From positions 1 to 24,218 of IMG/VR virus record IMGVR_UViG_3300047562_003032: DNA of 24,218 nucleotides, one strand, 5' to 3'. Each line of letters starts with the position of its first letter. Within the stretch, counting starts at the first letter, position 1. Below are positions 1,432-20,300 of the stretch, piece by piece. This DNA comes from a virus. The notes under the pieces are model-generated. The model was not told where the DNA came from. It did not search any database and saw only the letters and a list, made by a program, of their open reading frames with translations. A program made the position numbers and the translations under genes.

Positions 1432-2364
1432 TCAGTTCTCCACAATGTTTAGATTTTCAATAACTGCTGTTGTCAGTCCACTATTCAATTTATACTCCGA
1501 AATCTTATCCCAAATTTGCTTAGCAACTGGAATACCAGCGGTTACTCTTGCTCTCTCAATTTGAGCAGCTTGCTTTACACTTCCTGTAATTTGATCTGCT
1601 GCCCATCTACCACTCCCGACAGATGTTCTGCTATAGTGTAAAGGATCGGAAAGATATTCTACGCTGTGCTCTGGATCAATAGAATGATAGTGAAGAGGAT
1701 CAATAGGCCATTGGAATGTTTCTTCCCAAATTAAATAATCTAAAACATCATCAAAATCGGCAGGCGTTTTTACTTCATCTCTTAAATACTGTCTGTATTG
1801 TGTCCATAAGGAAACTTCACCATCAAATGTTTCTGGAGCATCAGGAAGTTGTGACCAATCAGATGATCTAAGTAATCTATCTCTTTCTGCTGTTCGGAAG
1901 GCATCATACTCTTCAATATATGCCTGAGTTGTAGCAATATCTACGATGGCTTTTGAAAGTTCAATTTCACTATCAAGACGTTGTACTTCAATTGCTGCTT
2001 TTACAATAGCAAACAGTTCTTGTACTTGACCGTAGGTAAATTCTTTATATTGATATCTAATCCATCTAGATTGTTTTGTAGAAAAATCAAACTTTAGTTT
2101 TTCTTTTTCCAAAAGATATTCGCCAGTTTCATATACAGAGAAGGTGATAATTCTATCGTTTTCATTAGACCACTCATTCGGCAAATTATCTCGTAAATTA
2201 GCGTTTACTTGAGGAGATAATTTAGTGGCAGCATACACATATTCACCATCAAAAGTAGTTCTAACAACAATAAGACGGTGTAAAGCATCCCACTCCAGAA
2301 TAGGTTTTTTCTCTTCTGGAGGAAGAATTCTCTCAAATTGGAAATCGTCTGGATTGAATGCCAT
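1432..2364 (-). CDS. Tail-fibre assembly chaperone-like protein
   Basis: The protein has 310 residues. Residues about 153-222 carry the signature of phage tail-assembly chaperone/tail-fibre assembly proteins (Phage_tail_APC type): RTAERDRLLRSSDWSQLPDA followed by a W-x2-YRQYLRD segment and then a conserved WP. Such proteins help fold or trimerise fibres and are usually encoded right after the fibre gene, as here, 24 bases after the 1947-residue tip protein. The first 150 residues are an additional beta-rich region followed by a helical stretch (about 110-152, probably coiled coil), so the protein is longer than simple assembly chaperones. Beyond the APC motif, DPLHY occurs twice (222-226 and 240-244), followed by a helical C-terminus. 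ATG at 2364 is the natural start; no strong ribosome site is visible. The family call is good; the specific client is inferred. Confidence 0.8.
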   Translation of the reverse strand: MAFNPDDFQFERILPPEEKKPILEWDALHRLIVVRTTFDGEYVYAATKLSPQVNANLRDNLPNEWSNENDRIITFSVYETGEYLLEKEKLKFDFSTKQSRWIRYQYKEFTYGQVQELFAIVKAAIEVQRLDSEIELSKAIVDIATTQAYIEEYDAFRTAERDRLLRSSDWSQLPDAPETFDGEVSLWTQYRQYLRDEVKTPADFDDVLDYLIWEETFQWPIDPLHYHSIDPEHSVEYLSDPLHYSRTSVGSGRWAADQITGSVKQAAQIERARVTAGIPVAKQIWDKISEYKLNSGLTTAVIENLNIVEN

Positions 2365-2388: not shown

Positions 2389-5300
2389 TTAGAATGCTTT
2401 AATTAGCCACTTCGCCCAAGTATATGGTGTTAGCAGAGGAACCTGAGTTTGTGGTGCTAAAGCAGGAGTAGGAATCAACTGTTTAGATTCACTTAATGTA
2501 AATGTACCAGGAAGAACCTGAATACCTATGTTTGCTGCGCCAAATGGTACAGTAACACTGGAAGTTGTTGGGGCACCGTTGCTAGTAGTACCACCATCCT
2601 CAGAATTACCATAAGAGTATGTTTCACCTGGATTAGTCAATGAAATGTAATGATTGTGATATAGTTTCTCCTCTGGGTTCCATGCTCTAACAATAACTTC
2701 TCTAGTTGGAATATCAATAGCAGAAATAAATTTCACAATCGTATCATCACCTTCAGCAGTTTCTGCTCCAGAAAATGGTACTGTACCCAAATTGATATAT
2801 GTATCAACTTCATTATAATTTGCCGAACCAGCTGTCATTTGGTTGTTTCTAATCGTAACTGTTGGGAACAGTTGTCTACTGCCAGGATCATACCCTTCAT
2901 AACCAGGATTCGTTCCACAAGGCCATTCACCAATATCTTGAATCCACCCAAATCCAGAAGATTCAGAATCTAAATTACAATTCGTAGAATCTGGAAGATT
3001 TTCTTTCCTCAACTCGTAATTTGCTGTGGCATATCCCCACAAATTAACAAAGAACTGACTAGTTTGTAAGAAAGCGGTAGAATTCTGTCCTCTAACATTT
3101 TGCCCAGCTCTAAATCCAGTTCTTCCACCACCATATCCACCAGCAGAATTCCATCTCACACGACCCTTAAATCTACCAGGATCTGCCTGACCAACAACAA
3201 GTTCGTGGAAATGTAGTGGAACATCATAAATCTTTTCCCTATTAATGGAAATTGGAGCGCCAGCAGTTCCACTAGTTTGGAATTCAATGATACCACTAAC
3301 GTCACTGTATCCAGTAGTTCTAACCTGGGCAATTCCAAAATAATCAGATGTTTGTGCTGGCTGTCCAGTAGCAGGGGTAATAACCTGTTCCAATTCAGCT
3401 ATACCAGGATCAGCAATCGTATCAATAAACCACATACCACCAAAAGATCCTGGGATTTCATTACCAGGAGATCCAGGAAGTTTTGTTGCTCTATATTCTG
3501 GTGTCAAACCAGGCGAAGCTAATTGATTGCCATCAATAACTCCAGTTCCTTTTACGTATCTGTTCCTCATGTCAGGAATTCTGAAGTCAATTCTTGGCGA
3601 AACTCCATCAGACAAAGTTTCACCAGGAACAGTTTCAGAACCATAGGTGAATCCTAAAACTTCAAACAATTGAGGATATTCTTCCGTCTTTAAATATGAT
3701 CCATCACAGTAAATAAATCCATGGAATCTAGAAGCTAGATTACCATCCAAATTACCCCAACCATCAGATTCAGTAAAGTCTTGGAATACAGGAATTATTG
3801 AACCGAGTGGAAGAGAGTCATATTTAGTTGCCAACCTAATAGGTTGATTAAATTGAGGATCTCCATTACTATCAACTAGATATTTAATTGGTTGAATAGC
3901 ACTATACCACTGACCGAAGATTGGGTCAGAAACACTAGCGGGAGACTGTACAGTAAAAGTTGTACTAAATGATCCAACATATATGCCAGCTGTTCTAGTT
4001 AATCCAGGGATTGGAGAAGATACAATTCTCACTCTAATAGTATCACCAGAAGAAACTGATCCTTGATTAGAGATTGTATAAGAATTGTATGCTCCACCGT
4101 TAATGCTGAATTGTGCTCCATTAGTACCAAACAAAGCAACAGGAATAGCAAGACCAGTAATCGTAACTGTATTAGAAGATTCTGTTACAGCATTAACAGA
4201 AGCAGCAAGAACAGTTGGGAATGAGAATGGAGTTGGATCAGTGCCAAACGTACCAGAAGTAGAAACACTCCATGGTGTTTCATAATATCCTTCAGTAGAT
4301 CCAGCAACACCAGACTTAGTGTTAAAAATCCTAGTCTCACCAACCACGCCAGTAGTTGTATATTTTAATTGAATATAGTCAAACAATCCAACTGTTGTTT
4401 GGGAAACACCGAGATCTACACCATTTTTAATAATTGTTGCTAGTCCTCCAGTAGATGTCTCACTGTCACCATCACCAGCTTCTACAATAAAATCAATTAC
4501 AGCAGTTCCTTCAATACCTTCAATTCTAACTGTATTACTAGTATATGTTTCATTTAAGTCAGCGCCAACAACATAAATCCAGGCATATCCTTCTGGAACT
4601 GTATCAACTTCTTCTAAAGTCGTGACAACCCAAGTTACAGTATCCCCTAATCCGATAGTAATATCAGTATCAACGCTTCTTAAATATTCTTCCGATGATC
4701 TAATTCTAAATTGAACCTCATCACCATTTTCTACTACTAATTCGGGTACTTGACCATTACTACCAGGAATCCAATCGCCACCATTAATAGAAACTTCCGC
4801 TCCGTTAGTAGCATTAACATATACTGGAACGGTGATGCCAGAAATAACTATGACTTCAGACTCGACTAACGTATCTAATGGAGCATCTTCTACATTAGGA
4901 ACGGTATAATCATTTGGTTCTTGATCTGGAGGAGAACCAGTATTGATAATCCAATAATTTTCTACCGTACCAACAGTTACTTTAACACGATATTCGGTAT
5001 CATATCTAGCTCCAACAGTAGCTCTAACTTGTAAATATTCATTGTTTCTAACTTGAGTAGCACCAAGAGATCCCCATGGTCCACAACTAGCATCATCTGT
5101 ACCAGAGCAAACTCTGGCGTTAGCAGTAAATCCAGATGTTTCCAAACTTACATTAACAGCACCAGTAATACCAGTGATTTGTGTTTTGGAAGAAACATAT
5201 TCGGTGAGTGGTTGAGCACCATCAATAATATCAAATCCAAATGGATCTGGAGTAATATCTTGCGGAGCAAATTCAATAAAAAGTGTTCCTGCTTGTCTGG

Positions 5301-8232
5301 GTGGAGCACCATTTGCTGAAACGGGATTAGTTCCTTCTAATGGTGTTACCCAATCAGCATTATAGTAAACACCACCACCACCGCCACCAGCAGCGTCCAA
5401 ATCAGTTGTCTGAATTGTTCCAATTAAAGTGCTTCCATCAAACTGCTGATATGATGGCAATACATCACCAGGCACACCATAACCACCACCGCCGCCGCCA
5501 CCACCAGCGCCCTCACCAGTATTATCATTAGCAGATTGACCATTCAAATATAATCCAGAAGTAGTAGTGTTGGCACTTCCATTGCCAGAATTATTGCCAA
5601 ATAATTCTGCTGATGGAATTCTAGTATCGTTACCAGATCCACCGCCACCACCACCGCCACCAGCGAGAGCAATTAACGTACCATCTGTCATAGTTATAGC
5701 AGTGGCACCACCACCACCGCCACCAGCTCCAGAGTAATCATTAGGACCAGCATTACCACCGTCACCACCATAAGCATAACCAAATCCACCAGCGCCGCCA
5801 CCAGAACCAACTACAAAAGACTGACCATTTCTACCACGATCTCCAGAATAAAGTCTTAATCTTTTGTCTCTAATAGTAGTTCCTTCATAGAAAGGCCAAT
5901 TTTCTTCTGGTATGCCAACTCTAGCTCGTAATAGCATACCAACGCCACCCGATCCACCAGTACTGTTAGGAACATCAGATCCACCATCTCCACCACCAGC
6001 ACCCAAGAGAGTAATATAAAATTCTTCAGAAGCATAATCAGCAAAAGCATATTGGAAATAAGTTGTAGTACCATCACCATCCCAATTAAAACTAGTAAAT
6101 GCTTCTTGATCAGCAGTATATCTTCTAGTAATAACTCTAAAAGTATCAGTTTGAGTTCCAATTCGGTATGCTACATCAATAACACCACCAGAAGTATTGG
6201 AAGCAGTTGCTCTAATATAAAGAAATTGAGATGAAGGTAATACTGTAACTGTGTTTGCCCAAGTAACACCGTCAGCACTAATTTGTGCCGATGCCCCAGG
6301 AGTTTGAGACGTAATGGTAGCAGTAGTTGATACGTCCAAACCAAGCAATTCAATAGATCTAGATACCTGAGTACCAGGATCCGCTCGATATCTATTCTCA
6401 GCTTTAAATTTATATGGGGAAGTTCTAGACTGTCTCGTGACCAATGTCATTGTGATAGTCTTATCATCATATGTTGGTGGGTTTGGACCAGCAGTTGGAT
6501 TTCCATCTGGACCAGCATCAGGTGGCCCTTGAAGAACCAAAGTAGATGATAAAGATGTACCAAATACTGTAGAAGATTTAAACCTAAAGTTAACAGTATC
6601 TCCGTTTGTAACAACTAACTGACTTACCCAACTACCAGTATTATTTTTTCTAATTTCAGCAGCACCAGAGCTAATAATAGCTGTTAGAGATACTTGCTGA
6701 TTTTGTGTATTAAAATTTGTTGCTCTGGCATCATTAACTGTTCCCTCCAATCCATTATAAGGAGATTCCAAATCATCATAAACTCCATCTGGATATTCTG
6801 TACCTAATCCAGAAATTGGGAAGTCGGCAAAATACCAAAATCCAGGTTCTGCTCTAACATTACTACTGTTTAGAGATTGTATTACTGGTTCCCATTCATC
6901 AATAACAAATATAGCATCATACTGTGAATCATTTAAAGGAGAAACTGCTCTCACAGTTTCTCCCACTTGATACCCAACGCCAGGGAAAATTATAGTAACT
7001 CCCCTAGCAAAAGTAGAATCACCACCAATAACATCGAATTGCTGGATTATCATTCCACTGCCACTGCCACCAGTGACAGCATAAGTATTTGTAGAAATAA
7101 ATCCAGCTCCATTGCTGGTTGGTCTAAGCTTAGCACCAATAGTATAAATTTCATCAATACTAATTGGATCTGGATATCTATCTACTTCAGTCCACGATTG
7201 CCAATCATCAGTAACTGTTCCTAGAGTTTGAGTAACTTGAGAATTTCCAGATCCATATGTACCAGAAGCAGTATTTTCATAGTTAGAAGAATTCCTAGTG
7301 TAAGTGTCGCCACTTTCAGCATACACATTTATACCACCACTTCTTTTCTGGGTATAATTAGGACCCAATCTAATTCTAGAATATAAAGTGTCATTTAATA
7401 CTAATTGGGCACCAATACTTTGACTCCAATTAACATTATCAGCTGATAATTGAACATCACCAGAAGAAGAGGCTCGTAAAACTACATCACCATCAATTCC
7501 AGTAATGGGAATATTCTGATACCAATAATCTTCGGCAGATATAGGTCCATCCACATCATTAGAATTTGGATCGGCAGTAGCAGGAGCATCTACCTTATCA
7601 ATTAAAGCATATTGGGTAATATCTTGATCTTGAGCTCTAGTTGTTACAGACCATGTTCTAGAAAAAGATGCTGTGCCATTATTAATATTTTGTCCCCAAG
7701 TTTCATCAGAAACTGTAAAAGTAACTAATGTATTAGTTACATACCAATCTGGCGTAGTAAATCTTATCTGTACTTCATCTCCAGGTCTCAATCCTCCAGT
7801 ACCAGTAGTAAAATCTACAGAAATAGATGTCAACCAAGAACTGAAATTACCATTTCTCTTATATCTAAACTGAGCAGTAGTATTGTTAGTATTACTATTC
7901 TTAGGTCCATTTGATACAGCAGAAATAGTTGCAGGAATAGCAACTTCAATCCCATCAATAGTAATAATATCAGAATAATATGTAGTATTTCTCTGGAATG
8001 TTGTTACTGTAGCTGCTGTTGTGCTGCCAGCGGTTGTATATGCTCGCTGATCAGTAAAAGAAAATGTATTTGGTGTAGCGTCTGGAATTTTTGTACCAAA
8101 AGTAATTCCATCCGTACCAGTACCAATTTGCACCGTAACCGATACCGACTCATTCCAATAATCTGGCGTCGGATATCTTACCTGTACTCTATCTCCAGAT
8201 CCTACATATACGGGCGTAGTACTAAATGGCAT
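2389..8232 (-). CDS. Large mosaic tail-fibre/adhesin protein: Ig-like repeats, glycine-rich block, tail-collar end
   Basis: The protein has 1947 residues, with no signal peptide or membrane segment. Residues 1-720 contain degenerate beta-sandwich modules of the form GDxVxxR...W-x-VTTR, and a segment near 415-440 with GVGYQVGETV. Residues 744-954 are a glycine-rich block with runs of up to nine glycines. Residues about 1000-1430 hold four more regular Ig-like modules of roughly 105-120 residues, with ISINGG- and VxxGDxVxxR-type signatures. Residues about 1472-1562 form a phage tail-collar domain (LPLGSIIPVF, FIYCDG, RIPDMRNRY). HxH pairs follow at H1674/H1676 and H1859/H1861, as in metal-binding short-tail-fibre tips such as T4 gp12. 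The likely role is a receptor-binding fibre or adhesin on the baseplate or tail. It follows the two small genes by 23 bases and precedes the chaperone-like gene. Structural class is confident; which fibre it is remains unknown. Confidence 0.85.
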   Translation of the reverse strand: MPFSTTPVYVGSGDRVQVRYPTPDYWNESVSVTVQIGTGTDGITFGTKIPDATPNTFSFTDQRAYTTAGSTTAATVTTFQRNTTYYSDIITIDGIEVAIPATISAVSNGPKNSNTNNTTAQFRYKRNGNFSSWLTSISVDFTTGTGGLRPGDEVQIRFTTPDWYVTNTLVTFTVSDETWGQNINNGTASFSRTWSVTTRAQDQDITQYALIDKVDAPATADPNSNDVDGPISAEDYWYQNIPITGIDGDVVLRASSSGDVQLSADNVNWSQSIGAQLVLNDTLYSRIRLGPNYTQKRSGGINVYAESGDTYTRNSSNYENTASGTYGSGNSQVTQTLGTVTDDWQSWTEVDRYPDPISIDEIYTIGAKLRPTSNGAGFISTNTYAVTGGSGSGMIIQQFDVIGGDSTFARGVTIIFPGVGYQVGETVRAVSPLNDSQYDAIFVIDEWEPVIQSLNSSNVRAEPGFWYFADFPISGLGTEYPDGVYDDLESPYNGLEGTVNDARATNFNTQNQQVSLTAIISSGAAEIRKNNTGSWVSQLVVTNGDTVNFRFKSSTVFGTSLSSTLVLQGPPDAGPDGNPTAGPNPPTYDDKTITMTLVTRQSRTSPYKFKAENRYRADPGTQVSRSIELLGLDVSTTATITSQTPGASAQISADGVTWANTVTVLPSSQFLYIRATASNTSGGVIDVAYRIGTQTDTFRVITRRYTADQEAFTSFNWDGDGTTTYFQYAFADYASEEFYITLLGAGGGDGGSDVPNSTGGSGGVGMLLRARVGIPEENWPFYEGTTIRDKRLRLYSGDRGRNGQSFVVGSGGGAGGFGYAYGGDGGNAGPNDYSGAGGGGGGATAITMTDGTLIALAGGGGGGGGSGNDTRIPSAELFGNNSGNGSANTTTSGLYLNGQSANDNTGEGAGGGGGGGGYGVPGDVLPSYQQFDGSTLIGTIQTTDLDAAGGGGGGVYYNADWVTPLEGTNPVSANGAPPRQAGTLFIEFAPQDITPDPFGFDIIDGAQPLTEYVSSKTQITGITGAVNVSLETSGFTANARVCSGTDDASCGPWGSLGATQVRNNEYLQVRATVGARYDTEYRVKVTVGTVENYWIINTGSPPDQEPNDYTVPNVEDAPLDTLVESEVIVISGITVPVYVNATNGAEVSINGGDWIPGSNGQVPELVVENGDEVQFRIRSSEEYLRSVDTDITIGLGDTVTWVVTTLEEVDTVPEGYAWIYVVGADLNETYTSNTVRIEGIEGTAVIDFIVEAGDGDSETSTGGLATIIKNGVDLGVSQTTVGLFDYIQLKYTTTGVVGETRIFNTKSGVAGSTEGYYETPWSVSTSGTFGTDPTPFSFPTVLAASVNAVTESSNTVTITGLAIPVALFGTNGAQFSINGGAYNSYTISNQGSVSSGDTIRVRIVSSPIPGLTRTAGIYVGSFSTTFTVQSPASVSDPIFGQWYSAIQPIKYLVDSNGDPQFNQPIRLATKYDSLPLGSIIPVFQDFTESDGWGNLDGNLASRFHGFIYCDGSYLKTEEYPQLFEVLGFTYGSETVPGETLSDGVSPRIDFRIPDMRNRYVKGTGVIDGNQLASPGLTPEYRATKLPGSPGNEIPGSFGGMWFIDTIADPGIAELEQVITPATGQPAQTSDYFGIAQVRTTGYSDVSGIIEFQTSGTAGAPISINREKIYDVPLHFHELVVGQADPGRFKGRVRWNSAGGYGGGRTGFRAGQNVRGQNSTAFLQTSQFFVNLWGYATANYELRKENLPDSTNCNLDSESSGFGWIQDIGEWPCGTNPGYEGYDPGSRQLFPTVTIRNNQMTAGSANYNEVDTYINLGTVPFSGAETAEGDDTIVKFISAIDIPTREVIVRAWNPEEKLYHNHYISLTNPGETYSYGNSEDGGTTSNGAPTTSSVTVPFGAANIGIQVLPGTFTLSESKQLIPTPALAPQTQVPLLTPYTWAKWLIKAF
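3940..5230 (-). repeat. Four tandem Ig-like protein modules in the mosaic adhesin
   Basis: Four successive modules of about 105-120 residues end near positions 4945, 4625, 4265 and 3950, each closing with a W/F-x-V-x-T-like strand (WIINTG, WVVTT, WSVSTS, TFTVQS). Several contain the pair TNGAxxSINGG and VxxGDxVxxR. Earlier degenerate copies end near 7640, 6440 and 6127, and related modules occur in the two glycine-rich proteins. This is a protein-level repeat; the DNA copies are diverged. Confidence 0.65.
5371..6003 (-). repeat. Glycine-codon-rich block in the mosaic adhesin
   Basis: Residues 744-954 of the 1947-residue protein contain many GGGG to G9 runs separated by short polar or aromatic segments. 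This resembles the glycine-rich (polyglycine II-forming) domains of phage adhesins. On the plus strand it appears as long cca/ccg/acc runs. Confidence 0.8.
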
Positions 8233-8255
8233 GGATTATTCTAACGCTCTTATTC

Positions 8256-8432
8256 CTATTTTTTATTTAGGTCACTAGGTCTAACATTAATCCAAGGACC
8301 ATTATTAATTCTTACTTGAATTGGTTTGTCAGCAGTAATTTCACCTGCTTCTTCTTCACCAATTTCAAATATAGTAGATTTGTAATATGGATCATCGGGA
8401 TTCATATCATAAGTTTCAGGAAACTTTCTCAT
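8256..8432 (-). CDS. 58-residue protein resembling the C-terminal module of the glycine-rich adhesins
   Basis: ATG at 8432 overlaps the TGA of the preceding gene (ATGA), with GGAG about 11 bases upstream, so I prefer it over a TTG start at 8447. The protein starts MRKFPETYD and ends SDLNKK. It matches the last ~65 residues of both glycine-rich proteins: a FP-x-x-(Y/D) beginning, a D/N-PD-P turn, an I-x-VR-I strand (QVRINNGPWINVR here, QVRIRR...W-QDIR and QCRIRR...W-TNVR there). It therefore looks like a free-standing copy of that terminal module, perhaps a detached or exchangeable cap. It has no signal peptide and is acidic overall. Function is unknown; translational coupling to the 70-residue gene suggests the two are made together. 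Confidence 0.75.
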   Translation of the reverse strand: MRKFPETYDMNPDDPYYKSTIFEIGEEEAGEITADKPIQVRINNGPWINVRPSDLNKK

Positions 8433-8641
8433 TGTAGAGTACTCCAATAATAATTAGCAATCGACTGTAGTAAAGGATCTTCATCAGAAAGATCATCTTC
8501 TTTATTAATAAATTTAGTGGCATTAGAAGATAGTACCACTTCACCATCAACTTCAGTATCAATACGATATCTAACAAATATTTGAGATAGTTGTGGTCTT
8601 ATCTCAATACCATCCAATTTTTTAATTCTTTGAGTTGCCAT
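8429..8641 (-). CDS. 70-residue protein of unknown function
   Basis: The protein begins MATQRIKKLDGIEIRP and ends NYYWSTLQ. I do not recognise the family. It is a mixed alpha/beta sequence: a likely beta-hairpin (IFVRYRIDTEVDGEVVLSS), then an acidic linker (EDDLSDEDP) and a short helix (LLQSIANYYW). Its ATG follows the upstream stop by 15 bases, and in that gap sits a copy of the 16-base AT-rich late-promoter-like motif. Its stop overlaps the start of the 58-residue gene by four bases. Position between adhesin genes suggests a small virion or assembly protein, but this is inference. Confidence 0.75.
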   Translation of the reverse strand: MATQRIKKLDGIEIRPQLSQIFVRYRIDTEVDGEVVLSSNATKFINKEDDLSDEDPLLQSIANYYWSTLQ

Positions 8642-8657
8642 TTTTATTTGTATTTAT
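8642..8657 (-). promoter_or_regulatory. Late-promoter-like 16-base motif, copy 2
   Basis: The minus strand reads ATAAATACAAATAAAA immediately before ATG at 8641, and the motif's first base is the last base of the TGA of the upstream glycine-rich gene. ATAAATA matches 7 of 8 positions of the T4 late promoter TATAAATA. The same 16 bases occur before the 497-residue gene. A promoter here would leave a leader of only a few bases with no visible Shine-Dalgarno site, so a role in translation is also possible. Confidence 0.5.
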
Positions 8658-10150
8658 CAGTCAGCTTGACGAACATTAGTCCACGATCCATAAGCACTAC
8701 TTCCATTTCTTCGAATTCTACATTGAATATCACCTTGAGCTGCTTTAACTTCTGTAGCACTATCAGTATAAAGCAATTCTATGTCATTTACAAGAACTGT
8801 TCCACTCTCAATATATTGGAATGAATTTGGATCAGGAACAACGTCAATATCAGTGTATGGAAATTCATCAATATCATCAGGTATATCAAAAGTTTCTCTA
8901 ATTTTGGGTGCTCTCGTAGTAATAGATACATTAAAACTAACAGTGCCAACAGTTACTGAGACTGTTTTAGTATTAGTTTTACCAAATTCTTGTCCTTCTC
9001 TACCAGAAATGTCAGTATTAAATGGAAGTGTTGTTGTTCTTAAGTAAACACTATTTCCATTATTAAACAACCTACTAGAACTAAATGTTCCACTACTACT
9101 TTCACCCAAAGCATTACCACTTCCAGATGTTGATCCTCTAGTAGGCATATCAACACATTCTATTGTTCCTAATAACACATTAACTTCCGTAACAGGTTCA
9201 AAAGGACCATGTGATGTAGTCCAACTATTACTAGGAGTATTATCATTTCTGACAGAAACTGTAGCATTAGCACTAACACTTCCACCTGGACCAGTAACCG
9301 TCAGTGTATATGTTTTTGTTGCTGGAGAAGTGCCACAAGCATTCGAAGTAATACCAGCATTAACATTTGTATTACCGCTTGCGGTCACAGTTCCAACGCC
9401 TTGATTTATGGATGCCGATGTAGCATAAGTTGAAGCCCACTCTAGTCTAACTACATCAGATGGAACTCCAGTAGTGCTGTTTTGCTCGCCTCCATTAAAA
9501 TAACTGATTGTAGGGGGAGAGTAAAAATATGCCCATCCTACCCACCCATCACCGCCATCACCAGCGCCACCGCCATCATGCCCAGCTCCACCGCCACCGT
9601 TATTTCCTCCACCTTTACCACCAGGACATTGACAACTAACACTTGCACTGCCAGTGCTACTAAAAGATACCCTAGCTCCAGCTCCCCCAGTTTCGTTTCC
9701 ACAACGTCCACATGGGCCAGCGCCCCCACCTTCTCTCGAAGCATCATCATCAGTTCCACTTTGTCCACCATTAGTATATTCATTACCATTGGCAGAACCA
9801 CCAGATCCTCCACCCCTATCATCAGTTCCATGGTTTCCGCCATTACCACTACATATTTGACCACCGCCCCGTATTCTCACATAAGACTTTTGACCATTAT
9901 TACCACCATCACCACCTGGAGCATTGCCTCCACGTCCAACATCATATTCAATAGTACCACCTGGCGTTACGGTAGCGGTTCCTCCGCCAACAGCTCCTCC
10001 TCCACCACCAGAACCTAATTCATCACCATCCCCGTCTTTCCACCCAGATCCACCACCACCGATAGCATATGCTCGTACAGAAGTAACAGCAAACGGTATA
10101 GTCCAACTACCGCTGCCACTACCTGCTGTAACTGTTCCCCCAAAAGTCAT
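8657..10150 (-). CDS. Glycine-rich adhesin-like tail protein (paralogue 2)
   Basis: The protein has 497 residues. Residues 1-30 form an N-terminal beta segment (SWTIPFAVTSVRAYAI), typical of the lead strand of phage glycine-rich domains. Residues 31-203 are glycine-rich and contain five cysteines (C100, C147, C150, C173, C175) forming CGRC and CQC pairs. Residues about 210-305 are a bacterial Ig-like domain (KTYTLTVTGPGGS), 310-415 a second beta module ending in SITTRAP, and 428-497 a C-terminal module (DIDVVPDPN, QCRIRR, W-TNVR). It is a clear paralogue of the protein encoded just upstream, with the same domain order. Glycine-rich domains of this type form polyglycine II sandwiches in T-even gp38-type tips, so receptor binding is the likely role. 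ATG follows the previous stop by 18 bases containing a late-promoter-like motif. Confidence 0.85.
   Translation of the reverse strand: MTFGGTVTAGSGSGSWTIPFAVTSVRAYAIGGGGSGWKDGDGDELGSGGGGGAVGGGTATVTPGGTIEYDVGRGGNAPGGDGGNNGQKSYVRIRGGGQICSGNGGNHGTDDRGGGSGGSANGNEYTNGGQSGTDDDASREGGGAGPCGRCGNETGGAGARVSFSSTGSASVSCQCPGGKGGGNNGGGGAGHDGGGAGDGGDGWVGWAYFYSPPTISYFNGGEQNSTTGVPSDVVRLEWASTYATSASINQGVGTVTASGNTNVNAGITSNACGTSPATKTYTLTVTGPGGSVSANATVSVRNDNTPSNSWTTSHGPFEPVTEVNVLLGTIECVDMPTRGSTSGSGNALGESSSGTFSSSRLFNNGNSVYLRTTTLPFNTDISGREGQEFGKTNTKTVSVTVGTVSFNVSITTRAPKIRETFDIPDDIDEFPYTDIDVVPDPNSFQYIESGTVLVNDIELLYTDSATEVKAAQGDIQCRIRRNGSSAYGSWTNVRQAD
9542..10060 (-). repeat. Glycine-codon-rich block in paralogue 2
   Basis: Residues 31-203 of the 497-residue protein, with many GGGG/GGNGG/GGGAG runs. 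This copy differs from the other two glycine-rich blocks in having a CxxC and a CxC pair. Plus-strand reading frames here are artefacts of glycine codon use. Confidence 0.8.
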
Positions 10151-10153
10151 AGC

Positions 10154-10169
10154 TTTTATTTGTATTTAT
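10154..10169 (-). promoter_or_regulatory. Late-promoter-like 16-base motif, copy 1
   Basis: The minus strand reads ATAAATACAAATAAAA between the TAA of the upstream glycine-rich gene and ATG at 10150. Its first base is shared with that stop codon. ATAAATA matches 7 of 8 bases of the T4 late promoter. The identical 16 bases occur before the 70-residue gene. Distance to the ATG is 3 bases, with no clear ribosome site. Confidence 0.5.
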
Positions 10170-11767
10170 TAAATTTCTCTAATATCTTGCCATTGTCCAA
10201 AAACAGAATCTCCAGATCTTCTAATTCTCACTTGAACATTAGGATCATCTGCTTTAACTTCTAGACCGTTAGAACTTGGAAATTCAATATCATCCATAAG
10301 AACACTATTAGTTTCCAAATATTCGGTGGTATTTGGATCTGGAACAACGTCAATATCTTCGTATGGATATGCTTGTAGTGTTGCTGCTAAACTAAAATCT
10401 TCTTGAGTTTCTGGTGCTCTAGTAATATAATAAAAAGTCTTAGTCACTGTTCCTATTGTAATAACCAACTCTTTGCTGTTTGTCTGTGATGTACCATCAG
10501 AATTTAAAGTATAATTAAATCCAGCAGAAAATGCTCGAAGATATAAAGTTTGACCATTAGAAATAGTACCAGTTGAGTTCCAAGTACTTTGATTAGTGCT
10601 GAAGTTCAACCCAGTTCCACATGTTACAGGAACATTATAATCAATACCATTAATAGTAGCAGCGGAAAAAGTATGTTGAATACTAGGTTCTAGACCTGTT
10701 TGATCTTCGATATTAAAATTATCTGGACTATTATCATTATAAAAATTAACTGTTAAAGGACTAGAAGCATCACAAAATGATCCAGCGCAAGCAGTTAATG
10801 TAAAAGTTCGTGATCTAGGAGAATTAGATCCAGCAACAGATTGCAATCCAGTGTTGATTGTTATAGTGGTGTCATCAGTAACATCCCAAGAATTACCAGC
10901 ATTATCTGTTAACGTTAATGTCGTATAGTCAGCTGCCGAGAATGCTAAAGTAACGCTAGAAGATCCATACACAGGATTAACAACAGCAGAAAATTCCGTT
11001 ACTTCAGTATCATATCTAATATAACTAACAGTTACATAACCATCATCAAAAAATGTTCCATTATCGGATGATAACGAAACAGCCGTAGAATCATATACAG
11101 ATCCGCCGCCGCCTCCACCACCAGAAGCATATCTACCAGATCTATCATCAGCACCTTGCTGACCACCACCGCCACCTCCAGCACCAGCTCCGCCGCCGCC
11201 GCCACCACCACCATCTCCTCCCTGAGATGATCCAGTTCCACCGCCGCCATTATTTGTTATCCCGCCATTATTAGAAGACCATCCCCCACCATTGCCGCCT
11301 GTACCACCATTTAAATACGAATCTGGATAACTACCTCCACCACCACCGCCACCAGCGCCAGCAACAATAATATTTTTAGATCCGCCAGGAGCATTGGTCC
11401 AAACAACAGCAGAAGATCCTCCGCCACCAGCACCTCCACCAGAACAACCTTGAGGTCCAGTAGCTCCACCTAGCCCACCACTATTCAAACCACCGCCACC
11501 ACTTCCTCTCCCACCTCCAGAAACACATCCCGAACCATCACCACCTCTACCTCCAACATAAATGTCATAATCTCTAGAGGTAAAATTAGAATTAGATAAT
11601 GAAGTAAAAGTTCCTCTACGACCACGCCCACCAGAACCCCCAGCCGCGCCATCATTTCCGCCATTACCACCTCTAGGTGAAGATACAACGAAAGTTACCG
11701 TACTAGCATTATCAGGAACAGTCACACTAGTAGAAGAAGTATATGTAGATGATACGTTAGTTGGCAT
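10169..11767 (-). CDS. Glycine-rich adhesin-like tail protein (paralogue 1)
   Basis: The protein has 532 residues. Residues 1-30 are a Ser/Thr-rich beta start (SSTSVTVPDNASTVTFVVSS). Residues 33-223 are a glycine-rich domain with runs up to eight glycines, closed by the strand GYVTVSY near 243-249. An Ig-like domain spans about 255-345 (a TFTLTACAG strand), then a beta module to about 450 ending YYITRAP, then the C-terminal module 462-532 (DIDVVPDPN, QVRIRR, W-QDIR). Domain order and several motifs are shared with the downstream 497-residue protein, so the two arose by duplication. The start codon overlaps the stop of the collar gene as TAATG, implying coupled translation. As with T-even gp38-type glycine-rich tips, receptor recognition at the cell surface is the likely job; the target is unknown. 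Confidence 0.85.
   Translation of the reverse strand: MPTNVSSTYTSSTSVTVPDNASTVTFVVSSPRGGNGGNDGAAGGSGGRGRRGTFTSLSNSNFTSRDYDIYVGGRGGDGSGCVSGGGRGSGGGGLNSGGLGGATGPQGCSGGGAGGGGSSAVVWTNAPGGSKNIIVAGAGGGGGGGSYPDSYLNGGTGGNGGGWSSNNGGITNNGGGGTGSSQGGDGGGGGGGGAGAGGGGGGQQGADDRSGRYASGGGGGGGSVYDSTAVSLSSDNGTFFDDGYVTVSYIRYDTEVTEFSAVVNPVYGSSSVTLAFSAADYTTLTLTDNAGNSWDVTDDTTITINTGLQSVAGSNSPRSRTFTLTACAGSFCDASSPLTVNFYNDNSPDNFNIEDQTGLEPSIQHTFSAATINGIDYNVPVTCGTGLNFSTNQSTWNSTGTISNGQTLYLRAFSAGFNYTLNSDGTSQTNSKELVITIGTVTKTFYYITRAPETQEDFSLAATLQAYPYEDIDVVPDPNTTEYLETNSVLMDDIEFPSSNGLEVKADDPNVQVRIRRSGDSVFGQWQDIREI
11099..11671 (-). repeat. Glycine-codon-rich block in paralogue 1
   Basis: Residues 33-223 of the 532-residue protein. 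It includes GGGGGGGGAGAGGGGGG-like stretches encoded by GGT/GGC/GGA runs, the most repetitive DNA in the window (11160-11220 and 11335-11355). Confidence 0.8.
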
Positions 11768-12657
11768 TAGATTTTAATTAAATATTCCATTAAAATGTAA
11801 GGAGGAGTTGCCTCATCTAATTTATAGAGATTATTAGTTGTAACTGTAATCTCAGTTTCTAAACCAAAAGCTTCAATCTGTGTATTAAGATATTCATATC
11901 TTAATCCATTATTTTCTCTTGCTGCTGATGTGGATGGAAAATTAATTCTATGTGTATGTGATACAGTAGCAGAGGATCCTGGAGGAGATTGAACTAAAAC
12001 CAAGTTATTAGATCCCTCATTCTGACCCTCATTATCACCACCAGAAGCTCCATCATTATCAAAAAAGAAACTATCGTTCCATTTTCCAAGATAAGTGAAG
12101 ACACCAACATTAGAATCGTGACCGTGAGATTGGAAATTTTGCTCAGACAATTGAGCAGCTAAAGTAGCACCACCAGATCCTGTTGTTGAATAAGATGGAT
12201 TTCCAATAAATTGTTCTAGACCACTAGCAACTACCTCAAAGTAACCATCATAGGTAATTGTTTCAGTTTCGCCAATCAAAGAGGTTACATTAACTTCACA
12301 ACCAACTCGATATCTACCATCATCATCTCTAATAACAGTATCATTAAGATATGCTCCTGAAGAATTAGCACCCAGTACATACTTAGATCCCAAATCTGGG
12401 AGTTGAAATTCATTAGATTGAAGTGTTACATCTGCTTTTTTAAATTTAGAGTCAGATCCAGTTCCTAAAACTTGTGCTAGAACAGGATATTGATCTGATG
12501 TTAAAACTTCTCCATTACAACGTAAGAATCCAGCTGGCAAATAAATTCTCCAGTTTCCTTGATCAGGAGCATTAGCGGTAGGCATTTGCCTTGGATAAGG
12601 GACAATTGTCCCTGTAACACCACCATATCTTGCTTTTTCTTTACTGTAAAATGCCAT
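11767..12657 (-). CDS. Phage tail-collar domain protein with HxH motifs
   Basis: The protein has 296 residues. The tail-collar domain occupies about residues 15-105: an aromatic IYLPAGFLRCNGE segment, DQYPVLAQVLG, and FQLPDLGSKYVLG. HxH pairs follow at H178/H180 (SHGHDSN) and H234/H236 (SHTHRIN), the arrangement known from metal-coordinating receptor-binding tips of T4 gp12 and gp37. The C-terminus (PPYILMEYLIKI) resembles the hydrophobic closing strand of such tips and matches the WLIKAF end of the 1947-residue protein. It starts one base after the stop of the 560-residue collar gene and overlaps the next gene by one base, so the three are probably translationally coupled. A short-tail-fibre or baseplate adhesin is likely. 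It is shorter than T4 gp12 and has little shaft. Confidence 0.85.
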   Translation of the reverse strand: MAFYSKEKARYGGVTGTIVPYPRQMPTANAPDQGNWRIYLPAGFLRCNGEVLTSDQYPVLAQVLGTGSDSKFKKADVTLQSNEFQLPDLGSKYVLGANSSGAYLNDTVIRDDDGRYRVGCEVNVTSLIGETETITYDGYFEVVASGLEQFIGNPSYSTTGSGGATLAAQLSEQNFQSHGHDSNVGVFTYLGKWNDSFFFDNDGASGGDNEGQNEGSNNLVLVQSPPGSSATVSHTHRINFPSTSAARENNGLRYEYLNTQIEAFGLETEITVTTNNLYKLDEATPPYILMEYLIKI

Positions 12658-12658
12658 T

Positions 12659-14341
12659 TTAGTAAGCTCTAATTAAATTTGTTACGGATAAAGAAGCAAC
12701 TCTAGTGGTAAACGTAATTTGGAAAGCATTAGGAATGTTGTTCGGAGTAACGTTTGGTTGAGCAATAGCAGGTATTTGCTCAGGAACACTCATAGCAGAT
12801 CCGTCATAAACAACATTAAACTCCCCTTCATGATCATGTTCTTCAATTCTATCAAAAACTCCACCTCCAGTATTAGTATTTGTGGTAAAGTCAATACCAG
12901 CATGATTAAACAAAGATTTAGTTGGCCCTAAAGAGTCATCAGATCCACCAGTTCCTGGGTCATAATTAGTAGAATCAATCCCACTATTACTATCAGAAAA
13001 AGGAATTAGCATACCAACGAGTAATCTACCATTATCTCTAATACTAGTCATATTAGCATCACCAGGAGAAGTATTTCCAGATTTATCTCGTAAATTTTTA
13101 GCAGAAGTAAACCAAGGCTTAGCGATACCATGCCCACCAGAAGCAGTTCTAATAGGTCTATGGTCAGCAACTGGTTTTGTACCAGCAACAGAACCTAAGG
13201 CATATCTACCAACACCAGCATCAAAAGGAGTATTATTGAAAGCGGTGATAGTATTACTGGGACTATCACCAATCCAATATCCAGCAGTATGGCACGATAA
13301 CTGACCTCTACCAGAAATAGGGCAAGGGAATCGAAACTGAACATCGACATATCCACATGGACATGGATCTTCTCTGTCATAATAGTCTGCTGCCTGAACT
13401 TCTGGGTTTTCCCAAACAGTAACACCAAATCCTGGTGTTTCATCAGCATCATTTAAATTTAGAGTTTCAATTCTATCTTCATGAAAGTGTTGGGGAAAAT
13501 GATTTCTACCCAATTTTCTCGGAACAACATAAACTGGTTCAATACCAAATCCAGGAATAATAGATTGTCCTGTAATATTTCCTTCAAAATAAGAATTTCC
13601 AATAGATTCTACAGTAACTACAATATCATTAGCGGTTGTAGTACCACCATCATCATCAAATTCATTTCCACGAATAGTAATAGTATCCCCAACTTCGTAT
13701 CCTTGTCCTCTTAATCTAACAACAACTTCATAATAAGATGACTGACCTGCTTCAAGTGGTGGGTTTATAACTACGGTAAAAGTCGCCCCAGTGCCAGATA
13801 CACCAGAACCAGAAACTCCATCAATATCACGATAAACTTTTGCCGTAGTTACTGGTGGAGCAGTTCCAGCAATAGAGATTGTTCTAATAGTTCCTTGTGG
13901 GTCAGGTGTGTAACTCAAGTTTAAATCTGTTCTGGCTTGAACAGTATTTGGAGGAGATAAATCCCCTGGTTCATTTCCAGGAACACTATCACCAATATAT
14001 TGTTCAACAATTGTTAGTGCTTCTTCACTATCAATAGGAGAAGGAATAGATGGATCAGTAGTGTAATCACCAAAGTATCCCGTTGAAATATCAGCTAGTG
14101 CTTTATTAGTTGTAGGAGGAAGTCGGATAGTTCCTTCGTAATTTGGAAAATTCCCAGTAAAATCAGTACCACCATAAGTGTTTCTAAGAACACGAGATAA
14201 TAAAGGGTATTCATTTGCCTGAATTTCCGCTCCATTACATAACAACCACCCAGCTGGAATATCCGAGAGGTTTCCTCCCCATGGTTGTACAGAACCAATA
14301 GGGAGTGCTCTTTGTGTTTTTACTACGTTGTAACCTGGCAT
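12659..14341 (-). CDS. Phage tail-collar domain protein with HxH and cysteine cluster
   Basis: The protein has 560 residues. The collar domain lies at about residues 11-80 (LPIGSVQPWGG, IPAGWLLCNG, NEYPLLSRVL, IRLPP). A module near 180-250 has SGTGATFTV and GYEVGDTITIRG, shared with the 1947-residue protein. HxH pairs are at H285/H287 (HFHEDRI) and near 502-504 (EHDHEG). Between them a segment with PCPCGY, PCPISG and LSCH (about 320-355) contains five cysteines and could form disulfides or a metal site. The C-terminus is beta-rich. Its ATG lies one base after the stop of the giant gene, so expression is tied to it. By domain content it is a gp12-like short tail fibre or collar-type baseplate fibre; the exact T4 equivalent cannot be fixed from sequence. 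Confidence 0.85.
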   Translation of the reverse strand: MPGYNVVKTQRALPIGSVQPWGGNLSDIPAGWLLCNGAEIQANEYPLLSRVLRNTYGGTDFTGNFPNYEGTIRLPPTTNKALADISTGYFGDYTTDPSIPSPIDSEEALTIVEQYIGDSVPGNEPGDLSPPNTVQARTDLNLSYTPDPQGTIRTISIAGTAPPVTTAKVYRDIDGVSGSGVSGTGATFTVVINPPLEAGQSSYYEVVVRLRGQGYEVGDTITIRGNEFDDDGGTTTANDIVVTVESIGNSYFEGNITGQSIIPGFGIEPVYVVPRKLGRNHFPQHFHEDRIETLNLNDADETPGFGVTVWENPEVQAADYYDREDPCPCGYVDVQFRFPCPISGRGQLSCHTAGYWIGDSPSNTITAFNNTPFDAGVGRYALGSVAGTKPVADHRPIRTASGGHGIAKPWFTSAKNLRDKSGNTSPGDANMTSIRDNGRLLVGMLIPFSDSNSGIDSTNYDPGTGGSDDSLGPTKSLFNHAGIDFTTNTNTGGGVFDRIEEHDHEGEFNVVYDGSAMSVPEQIPAIAQPNVTPNNIPNAFQITFTTRVASLSVTNLIRAY

Positions 14342-14342
14342 A

Positions 14343-17300
14343 TTAGATCTCTACTAACCACCAACCTTGTGTTTGTGATGGAGCACTGGTAGCAGTTCCA
14401 TCATAGTTTGTGCTTCCAAGATAAATCAGACCAAAACCAGCATGTGGAGTCTGGACAACCAATTCACCACCATCATAATCAACTCCAGACAGATCAGGGA
14501 TATTAGCGTTTGTAACATCACCTTGTACAAGAATTCCGTTAGGTGCTCTCATTCTCAGTGAAATATTATATGTTAAGTTTCCACCAACATCAACAATTCT
14601 AATCATGTCGCCTGTAACTGGATTTTCTGGTAGTTTGAGTGTAAGATCAGAAGATGGAGCAACGAAGTAATTGACATTGACATCAACAAATGCTTCGCTT
14701 TCTCCAGCACCAATAAAGACCCACTTTCTAGCACCATTTGGTGTGAAGAATCCTTCTTGACCAGCAAAGTCCATAGAACCATCACGATCAACTTGGAATA
14801 GTTGTTGCTCAGTATTTGCTCTCAAGAATGTTAGAGAGATATCACCATTAACAACAGTTCCAGTTGTATGAGTAGGAGGTGTGGTTCCAGAAGATCCATT
14901 TCCTACTACTTGATATACGTTATTATTGTAAATAACGGTATTTCCATTATTATAAGAAGTACTTGCTTGCCAATCTGGAGACTCATCAAACTTATTAAGT
15001 GTTAGAGTTCCGCCATTGATCTTAACATCACCAGCAAATGTATTTAGAGCATTACCCTCAATAGTAACAACACCACTTAAAGTCAGATTACCAGTGCTGT
15101 TCTGAACGATCATCTTTTCGTCAGTTAGACTATTACCAGTAATCAGGAAGTTTCCTCCACGTAATGTTGTATTACCACTAGATCCAAGAACTTCAAATCT
15201 ATCACAGTTTGGACCACCAGCATTGAAATTTCCCTTGAGACATACATTGCCAGTGGCTGAATCAACCATAAAGGTTTCGGTTCCAGCACCATTCGTAACA
15301 ACTAATCTCTGTGATCCAGCAGTTGTAGATCCAAGAAGAGTAATGCTCCTATTGACTTCGAGGTTGCCAAGAATTGAAGTATTTCCATTTGTAGAATCAA
15401 CTACAAATTGCTCAACTGGATCACTGCTGTTTCCATCGTTAACAACAAATCTTTGTGGAGATGTGGTGTTAACATCAGTGATGAAAGCAAGTTCAGTGTC
15501 AGTAAATCTGAGGATGTCTCCATCACCAACAGCACCAGAGAAATCACCAGTATTAACATCTTCCAGTGTTCCGCTAGTTACAGCATTTAGACCGTTGACA
15601 TCTTCAATGAAACTGACATTCTCTGCTAGGTTGTAACGAACGAGAACCGTGTTGTCAGGGTGATCAGTTCTTAGGAATCTATAAGAAGATGGTTGAGCAC
15701 TGCTTGGTAATCCACTAGGAGTTCCAGCAATTAAAGTTCCATCAGAATTTAACTGATTTTGTGCTCTTCTAACCTTGATTCTTAGAGGAAGATCACTGAT
15801 ATTGTTGAGGTTTGTCAACTCAGTAATCAATACCAATTCACTATACTGTTCACCGACTGGGGCATCTCCCTGAGTAGAACCAGAGTTAGCATCTACAGCT
15901 TCAATAGATCTGTCGAGTAAGAGGTAGGCACCAACTTCGAAAGAATTAACATCAGAAACTTGACCCAATGGTAGATAATATTCACCAGCAGGATTTGCAG
16001 GATCAACAAGATATCTATTATCACTCACACCACCTTCTAGTACGCCAGGAGCACCCCAGAAAGAACCACCCTCAGCGTCAAGTGTCTTACCAATTTCAAC
16101 TCTTTCGAAAAGGTCAATATTTGGTTCATCACTAGATCCTTCATCGTGAGCAACAGCATCAGTTCCAAATGAACCTCTTCTAACTTCAAATTCACCAGAG
16201 TTTAGACCACCTGATAGTGTGACATCACCTTCTAGAATTGAAGCTGCTTTAACAACTAAAGTATTGTTAATGGTTGTCGTACCACCTTGAGCGCCGATGC
16301 TCATTCTAGATACAGAGTTTCCAAACTTAAGTCTAGAAGTTGTAACGTTAAAGAGTTGAACTTCTTGTGCTGGAGAAGAAAGTCTAGCAATTCCAGTTCC
16401 AGTAGCAATCGCTGCTCCAATAGCAGCGTCTCCGTCAGCTTCGAAGAACGAACTTCTTACCTTCAAGACAGAACCATCTACTAGAGAGTTAGATTTCTTA
16501 AGGTAAGCACCACCTAATTGAATTACCGAAGTATTATTAGTATTAGTATTGAGAGTGGTGCCAATAGCAACAATAGAAGATGTTGGATTAGCGTGAATAT
16601 TCAATACTCCTTCTTCAGCAAATCTACCAATATTAACTTCCTGAGTTTCTGTAGAATTACCGATATTAATTACTTGATCAACACTAGTTGTGTTGGCCAT
16701 ATTCAATGTTTCAGCGAAGGAGAAAGCGTTAATAGTAACAGCATTTCCGTCAAGTAGATTGAATGCTGTATTTGTAGTTCCTAAAGATCCACCATCAACT
16801 CTTAAATTAGAATCGAAGAATACATCTCTGGTTACCTTAACATCACCATCAACACTCAATGTGTGGAAAGTGCTTCCTTGATCAATGTTAATACCAACTC
16901 TACCGCCAGTGATAGTTCTTGGTTGTCCTTGCTCATCAAATCCAGAAGTTGTAGATACTCTAAAGACTGCTTCCGTATTTGGTGAAGTAGAATCTCCTCC
17001 AACTAAGAAGGCATTATCTTGCTCTACGAATGTTCTGCCAGCAAGGGTAGCATTGTTATTAAAGTTACCAACTGGTAATCTCTTTCCACTGATCCAAGCA
17101 TTACCAACAACATCCAAGTTAGCTCTTGGATCAGTTGCTCCAGAAACAAAAGCAGTATCAGCATCGCTATGTGCTGCTCTTGCTACGGTATTAATACCAA
17201 GTTTGTAATCACCATTTTCATCAGTATTTGTTCTAAGTGTTTCTGCTCCAAGTACTCCAAGTTCTTTCCAAGTGGATGTAGAAAGAGAAATTACGACATT

Positions 17301-20300
17301 AGATGGAATAGCAGTACCACCATTATTATCATCAGAACTTGTATCAATAATTAGAGAAGCATTGAATTGTAGTGTGGAACCTGTTGTAGCAATAACTTCA
17401 ACAATTCCATTAGCGTTTAGGAATCTACCAGTAAAACCATCAATTTTGATGAAAGATCCTGGAGAAATGCCAAGAGATGCTGGTGAAATTCCACTAGCCG
17501 TGTTAAGTTGTACTAAATTACCACCAAGAGCAATAACAGTAGCAAACCCACTGCTAACATCTTGATAATAGTTGGCATAAATCCATCCAAAAGATCCGCT
17601 TCTACCAACTGACTCACCTTTAAGTAGAATATCTCCAGATAAAGGATCAGATCCTGCTCCTGTTCCAAATCTAACTTCAAATCCTAAATCAGAATTAGCC
17701 TGATTAGGAGATTTGTTTGTAGGAGTGTTACCATTTCCCTGATCAATGTGAGTTCTGATGCTGTAATTTTGACCAGTTAGCAGATTGCTTCCTCTTGGAT
17801 TGAATCTATAGATAGCAGAGAATATTTGGTTCTGGTTAATAACTACATTACCTTCAGAAGCAATCGTGCTTCTGTTAAATGAGCTACTATCTAGACTTAA
17901 GTCACCACCAAGACTTGAATCAACATTAGATACAACAGTGAAAGCATTGCCTTCATCAGCATCAACGTTAATTGTTACTGGGTTATTAAACAAGGCGTCG
18001 CCATCTACGGTGATTTCTTGTTCAAAAGCAACAGGTAGTTCAAAGGTTGTAACTAGACCGCCAATATCTCCCTCATCATCATCAGATGAAAGAAGTTCCG
18101 CTCTTTCTAGGAATGTCTCTTCGCCTGTAATAGCATTGATCTTACGGTTACCAATATAGAGGTCACCATTAGAGTTTAGACCAGTGTAGAAAACGATACC
18201 ACCATCTTCACGCTTTGCCTGGGCATAGAAGTCTTGGATTGGTTCTAAAACAACTTCCTGACGTAGTGGGAAACCTGTTGAATAGTTACCAGGACCGAAA
18301 CCTAGATATTCAAATGTGTGGTTACCAGATCTAGCAATAGATGGTCTACGTAGTTCAACATAAAGTCTACGCTCTGTTGGATATGGCGAATCACCAGAAA
18401 TAGGAATCAATCTATCTTCTGAACCAGAGGTAGCATTACCATCTTGTGCTGTAATTGGATTATTTACATATTCATATCTGTTAAGAGCTGGATTTTCAAT
18501 TAGATCAAAGATAACTTCCTTAGTTTGACTTCCCTTATAATCGTTATTTGTAACGAGACCATGAATAAAGTTATCAGCAGCACAAATAGTTGCTGGAGTA
18601 TCAAGAATTGTTGTGTCTCTCGTGCCATCAGCACGAACTTGGAACCACAATGGATCGTTCTTATAATCAAGAGGATACAGGGAAGAAATTGGTTGAGAGA
18701 ACTTAAAGTTTCTGAAGTTTGTACCAACACCAGGACCAGTTGGATATGGAGAGATATTACCCTTAACACATGTTAAGTAGTAAATACCTTCTTGCTGGTT
18801 AGGAATTCTTCTTTGAATCTCATCAATATCAAAGATATAGAAGGTATCTTCAATCTGACCAGCATCAACAACACTACTTACTTCATACTGAATACCATCA
18901 TCATCACGAACAATATCTCCAGGAGTCATTGTAAGAACGTTAGCATTCTTATCACTGTACAGATAATCTCTTCTATCAGACTTACTGAGAGAATTGTTTG
19001 GAGATCCTACGCTATTTGGTTTTGCTAGCAAAGTAGCATAGATTAAAACTTGATTACCTTCGCCGTCGAGAACAGGATCATTATCAGCATCTAGAACAGG
19101 TTGTGAGAATACAGTAGCAACATTGCTGTTGTATTCAATCACATCTTCATCCAGACCTTTGATAACTAAGTAATGCTCGTCGGTTCCATCTGGATTAAAG
19201 TATCCCTGAAGATAACCAAATCCAGAAGAGAATCCATTCCAGGTAATTCTGTTATTCTCAATGCTCGTAGAAGTATTAATTCTAAAAGCGCCGCCCTGAG
19301 GAGAATTAATCTTAACAGTTACAAACTGCTCATTTCTAACAGCATCATCAGTAATTCCAAGGTCGAATACTGTAAGTTCTAGATACTCAGTACCAGCAAT
19401 TTCAGTTTTTCTAGCAGATTGAATACTAAATGATGTCTTAGAATCTGTTCTCTCACTACCAACAATCTTAACTTGATTTACATTGTAAGGATCATATGAG
19501 AACTGAGAGTTTAGTTCAGAATCTGGCAATCCTAATTGTTGTGAAATTGTACCACCACCAGCTAATTGAGTTTGAATCTCAAATCTAGCAACAGAAGCAG
19601 ATCCAGCAGCAACTGGTTTTAAAACAATACGCTGTGGTAGTAGTTTTCTAGTCTCGTCAGTTCTCGCTTTGAGAACAAAACCATTTAGAGGATCACGTAC
19701 ACCTTCCGAATACTCAGGAATAACGTAACGTAGACGATAGATTCTATCTTCGGCACCCCTTTCATCTTCAAGTCTCTGGTAGAAGGTGTTCTTAGATCTA
19801 GCATCTTTGAGATCTTCACCAATCTCATTCATCCTTGCCTGAATATTTACAGCAGGATCATAAGCATCAGTAGTTTGAATGTACCATTGACCAGTAGTTG
19901 TCTCTCTGTTGTCTGGAAGTAAAGCACTATCATCTCTAGTAGCATCAAATCTCACAGGAGAGACACGCTTATCGGCAAAGACGTAGAAGTTTTGTCCAAA
20001 TCCAGGAGCAAATGTAATTCTAGGAGTTCCAGCAACAGCTTCAGATTCAGTATTAAATACAGCAAATGTCTTAGGAGTTACAAATCTAACATAATAATAT
20101 TGATTTGGATTTACTTCCGTGGTTACATTGTTTACCGTAATTTGTGGCAATGATGACTCAGAAGGATCGCCAAAAGTTCTAAAGAAAACTTTTTGTACAA
20201 CTGGATCGTAACCAGTTAGATCAAGAGGAACATCAAAAATATGTGGTACATCAGTTTCCACAACATCGGTTAGACCAGAACCAAAATTACAGAGATATTG

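Follow-up and report, generated by a model that had tools for sequence, protein, structure and literature searches.

Tandem proteins with exchangeable N-terminal heads on a shared C-terminal stem, probable receptor-binding proteins in the tail locus of T4-like cyanophages

Results

Gene order at the tail locus

The window, i.e., the whole stretch of DNA that was analyzed, corresponds to the IMG/VR virus record IMGVR_UViG_3300047562_003032 and has a length of 24,218 bases. The minus strand encodes all main genes, in the order P0006, P0005, P0004, P0003, P0002, P0001 (1947 aa), and P0007, followed by the start of a helicase gene (Table 1). As the same gene order is found in the Synechococcus phages Sf-FR1 and S-RIM44, the DNA comes from a T4-like cyanophage, a virus of marine cyanobacteria, and the window is the tail locus of such a phage. 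P0001 shares 36% identity over 89% with its Sf-FR1 homolog, and its relatives are annotated as short tail fiber. A 70-aa open reading frame is located in the gap between P0002 and P0001 (window positions 8429-8641), where small genes are also present in Sf-FR1. Genes for 2OG-Fe(II) oxygenases, possible fiber-protein hydroxylases, were found in or near the fiber locus of S-RIM44 (L002:15134-15862 and 16785-17459) and Sf-FR1 (L001:27279-27914).

Table 1. Features of the tail locus in the window, in the order of the genes.
Feature	Position	Strand	Characteristics and evidence
P0006, very large tail fiber protein	14343..24218	-	3291 aa, open at the 5' end, runs off the window; Sf-FR1 counterpart at the equal place annotated as tail protein
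P0005, tail collar/short tail fiber protein	12659..14341	-	Collar PF07484, E 3.2e-13; phrog_4591, E 1.4e-62
P0004, tail collar protein, flanks the cassette on one side	11767..12657	-	Collar PF07484, E 1.3e-7; phrog_4714 tail collar protein, E 5.7e-61
P0003, gene	10169-11767	-	
P0003, N-terminal glycine-rich head, class A (residues 1-252)	11012..11767	-	36% Gly; AlphaFold2 (AF2); Foldseek
P0003, C-terminal stem of ~280 aa: two Ig/FN3-like domains and a low-confidence tail	10169..11008	-	Homology to P0002; AF2
P0002, gene	8657-10150	-	
P0002, N-terminal glycine-rich head, class B (residues 1-210)	9521..10150	-	36% Gly; Gly_rich_2; Foldseek
P0002, C-terminal stem	8657..9520	-	Homologous to the P0003 stem
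P0001, large fiber protein with tail collar domain (residues 1504-1537)	2389..8232	-	Collar PF07484, E 2.4e-6; phrog_4924 short tail fiber, E 3.6e-98
P0001, internal glycine-rich block (residues 706-990)	5263..6117	-	26% Gly
P0007, tail assembly chaperone, candidate fiber folding helper	1432..2364	-	Phage_tail_APC PF16778, E 2.5e-9; phrog_4697, E 7.3e-42

Three genes encode glycine-rich blocks

A preliminary description of this DNA had recognized a glycine-rich block in each of three separate genes, and we could confirm this for P0003, P0002, and P0001, all of which are minus-strand genes. The P0003 block contains runs of up to eight glycines and seven runs of at least four, the P0001 block also has runs of up to eight, and the longest run in the P0002 block is five. 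The best 180-residue stretches comprised 83 (P0003), 70 (P0002), and 62 (P0001) glycines. For each protein, none of 1000 residue shuffles reached this count, which rules out chance composition as the source of the blocks, and the glycine density of the neighboring tail proteins P0004-P0007 was unremarkable in the same test. A simple DNA repeat can also be rejected, as the glycine codons are mixed (GGT, GGA, and GGC, with little GGG) and TRF detected only one short array, located in P0002. With 210-285 residues, the blocks are larger than the 170-210 residues originally given, and the interval 5371-11671 assigned to them does not cover the P0001 and P0003 blocks to their ends. The claim of long glycine runs is weak for P0002, whose five-glycine run is not unusual for its composition and was matched in 132 of 1000 shuffles.

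P0003 and P0002 belong to a cassette with a shared stem and many heads

P0003 and P0002 have a C-terminal stem of ~280 aa in common (35% identity), whereas their N-terminal parts differ. Scans of viral contigs with P0003 or P0002 as single proteins found no relatives, and in tblastn searches of phages most matches of the two proteins fell into the stem and came from Sf-FR1 and S-RIM44. A stem profile matched 39 viral loci, and the stem HMM matched ~110 distinct proteins in related loci. In 46 genomes or contigs, including those of the cultured phages Sf-FR1 and S-RIM44, one to four tandem paralogs with the shared stem occupy the interval from the collar gene to the P0001-like gene.

The heads on these stems fall into 17 classes, glycine-rich and not, a number that is only indicative as it results from a simple, arbitrary identity threshold and includes some classes of single proteins. 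Glycine-rich heads account for 66 of 107. At least two cassette genes occur in 37 of the 46 genomes or contigs; among these 37, at least one glycine head is present in 36, and glycine and non-glycine heads are mixed in 28. The combination of class A beside class B, as in the window, was found in 12 genomes or contigs.

One of the non-glycine heads is a SUEL D-galactoside/L-rhamnose-binding lectin (39.5 bits versus a Pfam cut-off of 31.4 bits), encoded at L038:7656-8969 and also present in four further loci (L034, L037, L061, and L071). SUEL lectin domains are best known from animals, and the sequence match supports a putative recognition of surface sugars at the head position. A long head in L021 matches PA14 just under the cut-off. 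Cassette proteins of 1100-1180 aa (L014:8828-12127, L021:8819-12373, and L022:8819-12373) begin with a glycine-rich part, continue with the marginal PA14 match and further sequence, and end with the shared stem; heads may thus be stacked as well as swapped.

The lectin and the marginal PA14 heads argue against the view that P0003 and P0002 are no adhesins at all and serve as tail or capsid decorations or as structural spacers. Such a role could be derived from phrog_29022 and phrog_2155, to which some P0003 relatives belong and which are listed under head and packaging as "virion structural protein", and from the P0001 block, which is conserved like a structural part (see below). However, this PHROG label is generic, and collar and short-tail-fiber genes flank the locus in all relatives inspected. 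We regard a mere decoration or spacer function as very unlikely.

The heads are predicted to adopt a known glycine-rich fold

AF2 models of the whole P0003 and the whole P0002 had a mean pLDDT of 83 each, with confident heads (mostly 76-96 in the case of P0003) and poor C-terminal tails. The disorder that would have spoken against an adhesin domain was thus not predicted for the P0003 and P0002 blocks. In terms of predicted secondary structure, the heads consist of framing strands and long glycine segments that are neither helix nor strand.

When the P0003 model was compared with the PDB using Foldseek, the glycine-rich domains of ALK and LTK gave the best match (E 4.4e-6, probability 1.00) and filled nearly all of ranks 1-18. 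For the P0002 model, the Pam3 fiber took ranks 1-2, with 7ypx as the best match (E 2.7e-6, 26% identity). The target-normalized TM-scores of these matches to solved TG domains were modest (0.33-0.41 for P0003 to ALK and 0.54 for P0002 to Pam3), and Foldseek also scores residue identity, which is inflated by glycine, so that the matches allow a fold assignment and are no proof of common descent. At the sequence level, ALK was also the best PDB match of the class-A profile (E 7e-4 and 0.0027), the class-B profile matched nothing of interest in the PDB, and PDB searches with single sequences gave linker and composition matches only. Taken together, the models suggest that the heads of P0003 and P0002 adopt a fold described in the literature, the combination of a TNF-like and a glycine-rich domain ("TG" fold). 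This fold is already known, and its kinship with ALK has been published.

With Pfam, P0002 matched Gly_rich_2 (PF21722) at E 0.0019 and 18.7 bits, below the curated cut-off of 24.3 bits, but 13 of 16 class-B relatives matched this family, the best with E 5.9e-12, and one head of class 6 matched it above the cut-off. P0003 itself gave no PF21722 match, although relatives of both classes did. As a side aspect, several phage and algal-virus proteins of the TG fold among the BFVD matches are named "receptor protein-tyrosine kinase", apparently because their glycine-rich domain resembles that of ALK.

The stem was modeled as β-sandwich domains in P0003, with residues 455-498 at a pLDDT below 50, and the last ~75 residues of each stem were poorly modeled in the AF2 monomers. 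Despite the lowest model confidence, this stem tail (residues 455-532 of P0003 and 419-497 of P0002) has strongly conserved motifs, namely YPYEDID and a W near the end. It weakly resembles a part of a repeated P0001 domain (hhalign 61%), and it may fold only together with a partner.

Most phage fibers have an N-terminal attachment part and a C-terminal receptor-binding tip. If the cassette proteins followed this usual polarity, the end of the stem would be the receptor-binding tip and the N-terminal domain the attachment part, and the low-confidence tail could then be an exposed element or one that forms only in a trimer. However, an attachment part should be shared and a binding part diverse, whereas in the cassette proteins the C-terminus is the shared part and the N-terminus is made up of unrelated folds that include a lectin. 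The usual polarity is, in our view, quite unlikely for these proteins, if slightly less so than a decoration function.

The internal block of P0001 is a near-fixed domain

The preliminary description had counted the P0001 block as a third adhesin domain. It turned out to be a near-fixed internal domain of a conserved fiber protein: the block recurs at the equivalent position of almost all complete homologs, is absent from the shorter S-RIM44 protein, and diverges like the rest of P0001. Its alignment with the class-A head profile reached an hhalign probability of 98.7% over 133 columns, which glycine bias may inflate, and a PDB search with the block profile matched neither ALK nor Pam3. We therefore treat it, on the grounds of these sequence comparisons, as a related, TG-like fixed domain within the main short-tail-fiber-like protein and not as an alternative adhesin. 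In one contig, the P0001 homolog is split into two overlapping open reading frames (L071:3245-5950 and 5863-8073), due to a frameshift or a sequencing error.

Variation resides in the class of the head

The different polar inserts between the glycine runs had been proposed as the source of variation, but alignments across related phages contradicted this, as the inserts are not hypervariable and diverge at about the rate of the stem. In pairs of relatives, the mean variability was 0.32 for class-A heads and 0.33 for stems, with a top decile of 0.77 for both, and the two parts remained equally divergent after the most conserved 30% of columns had been dropped from each. Class-B heads were more conserved than their own stems. 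Because head and stem diverge equally, hypervariable inserts can be rejected as the source of variation.

What varies is the head class that sits on the stem. The class at one slot differs between phages whose P0001 homologs are 88-95% identical: at 95% identity, a class-B glycine gene in one phage faces an 1100-aa composite gene in the other, and at 88-89% identity the third cassette gene differs. Frequent recent swapping of heads is not the general rule, as in 49 of 70 cases the nearest stem came from another phage and carried a head of the same class, from which it follows that exchange is infrequent on short time scales.

With similar P0001 homologs, the same-head stems of two phages were closest to each other. 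With P0001 homologs of less than 45% identity, stem identity was 45% within a genome, 34% between same-head stems of two genomes, and 32% in unrelated pairs. Own-genome stems were more alike than unrelated ones in 55 of 56 comparisons, which reuse the same genomes and are therefore not independent tests. Lossless descent without exchange can be rejected, since own-genome stems are more alike than stems that carry the same head in distant phages. Among the four closest comparisons of stems with different heads, two, one within a single genome and one between near-identical genomes, had a stem identity of 0.2-0.7 close to the head that increased to 0.7-0.9 at the C-terminus; the other two showed a similar but flatter rise. 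This homogenization is compatible with gene conversion or with selection by a common docking partner, as both would give such a pattern.

Discussion

A probable tandem set of exchangeable receptor-binding heads

P0003 and P0002 are likely two members of a tandem cassette of receptor-binding proteins, in which exchangeable heads sit on a common type of stem and the end of the stem attaches to the tail or to a fiber. Each head would combine a TNF-like frame with glycine-rich strands that extend from it and pack into a glycine lattice, as is characteristic of the TG fold, and would be carried by a stem of Ig/FN3-like domains. The stem tail would dock to a common tail or fiber partner on the virion, perhaps the neighboring collar and fiber proteins, with the tail assembly chaperone as a helper. 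The head could then contact the cell surface, probably a glycan or an outer-membrane component. Host specificity would change by gene replacement and by head exchange between different folds, while recombination or the docking constraint would keep the stems of one genome alike. Such a likeness within a genome is expected for a shared docking partner, although the two stems of the window itself are only 35% identical.

More tentatively, the cassette may represent a combinatorial adhesin array, in which tandem paralogs with a genome-specific C-terminal stem and exchangeable N-terminal heads of many unrelated folds (two or more glycine types of the TG fold, the SUEL lectin, and others) are displayed together, so that one virion could address several receptors and head exchange would be the main route of host-range change. 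Multivalent display is one conceivable use of the tandem heads, alternative use of single heads another.

T4-like cyanophages belong to the most common viruses in the ocean. In the open-licence literature, we found no description of receptor-binding proteins from this phage group. TG-fold phage fibers and modular receptor-binding proteins are already known; what is new, as far as open-licence papers show, is the tandem cassette of N-terminal heads and a shared C-terminal stem in T4-like cyanophages. It provides concrete receptor-binding candidates, for example in the cultured phages Sf-FR1 and S-RIM44, and most of these candidates carry no annotation beyond hypothetical or virion structural protein. 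The data suggest that viruses with this cassette change their adhesion target by replacement of the whole head and not by loop mutation, and we predict that host range tracks the head class rather than mutations in loops.

Comparison with known systems

The preliminary description had read the blocks as adhesins of the T-even gp38 type, with a polyglycine II sandwich and hypervariable receptor loops. An ordered glycine-rich fold of an adhesin sort, its presence in several copies per phage, and a very likely role in host recognition agree with that reading; membership in the gp38 type does not, as the folds match ALK/LTK and Pam3 and the arrangement differs. The S16/T2-type gp38 (PDB 6F45) and the cassette proteins are alike in their glycine-rich motifs with polar loops in between and in their origin from the tail fiber region of a T4-like phage, and Pam3 gp24, to which P0002 is similar, has a limited resemblance to S16 gp38 (PMC9608196). 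However, gp38 consists of an N-terminal helical attachment domain, a β-helix, a polyglycine II sandwich of three layers and 73 residues, and hypervariable loops (PMC6851490, PMC12892980), and none of these features was found in the cassette proteins, whose layout is inverted, with an N-terminal glycine head and a shared C-terminal stem. The models of P0003 and P0002 have no N-terminal helices of the type that caps the gp37 trimer, and their heads start with β-strands at residue 2-3. Moreover, S16 gp38 was not among the top 50 PDB Foldseek matches of either model, and no gp38 adhesin family was detected for P0001-P0003 in Pfam (E<=1) or PHROGs (E<=0.01). Together with the lack of hypervariability in the inserts, this makes it very unlikely that P0003 and P0002 are gp38-type adhesins.

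The tail fiber gp24 of cyanophage Pam3 (PDB 7ypx, 7yfw; PMC9608196) is closer to the exchangeable heads proposed here: it combines a TNF-like and a glycine-rich domain, is the best fold match of P0002, and also comes from a cyanophage. It needs a fiber chaperone, and in the window the tail assembly chaperone gene P0007 adjoins P0001. Pam3 has a single fiber gene, whose product carries an N-terminal docking helix and a C-terminal glycine head. In the cassette, by contrast, the head is N-terminal and the stem C-terminal, one to four paralogs stand in tandem, and the heads are of different folds. In a Klebsiella phage fiber of the TG fold, the glycine-rich domain is where residues changed during host adaptation (PMC12671077).

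Outside of phages, the TG domain of the receptors ALK and LTK (PDB 7lrz, 7nx1, 7lir) is both the best fold match and the best profile match of the P0003 head. ALK and LTK are animal receptor kinases that bind protein ligands. Given the TM-scores, the modeled similarity indicates, weakly, a kinship of fold rather than a demonstrated common descent or function. The cassette thereby adds naturally swapped N-terminal examples to a fold that is common to phage fibers and animal ALK receptors.
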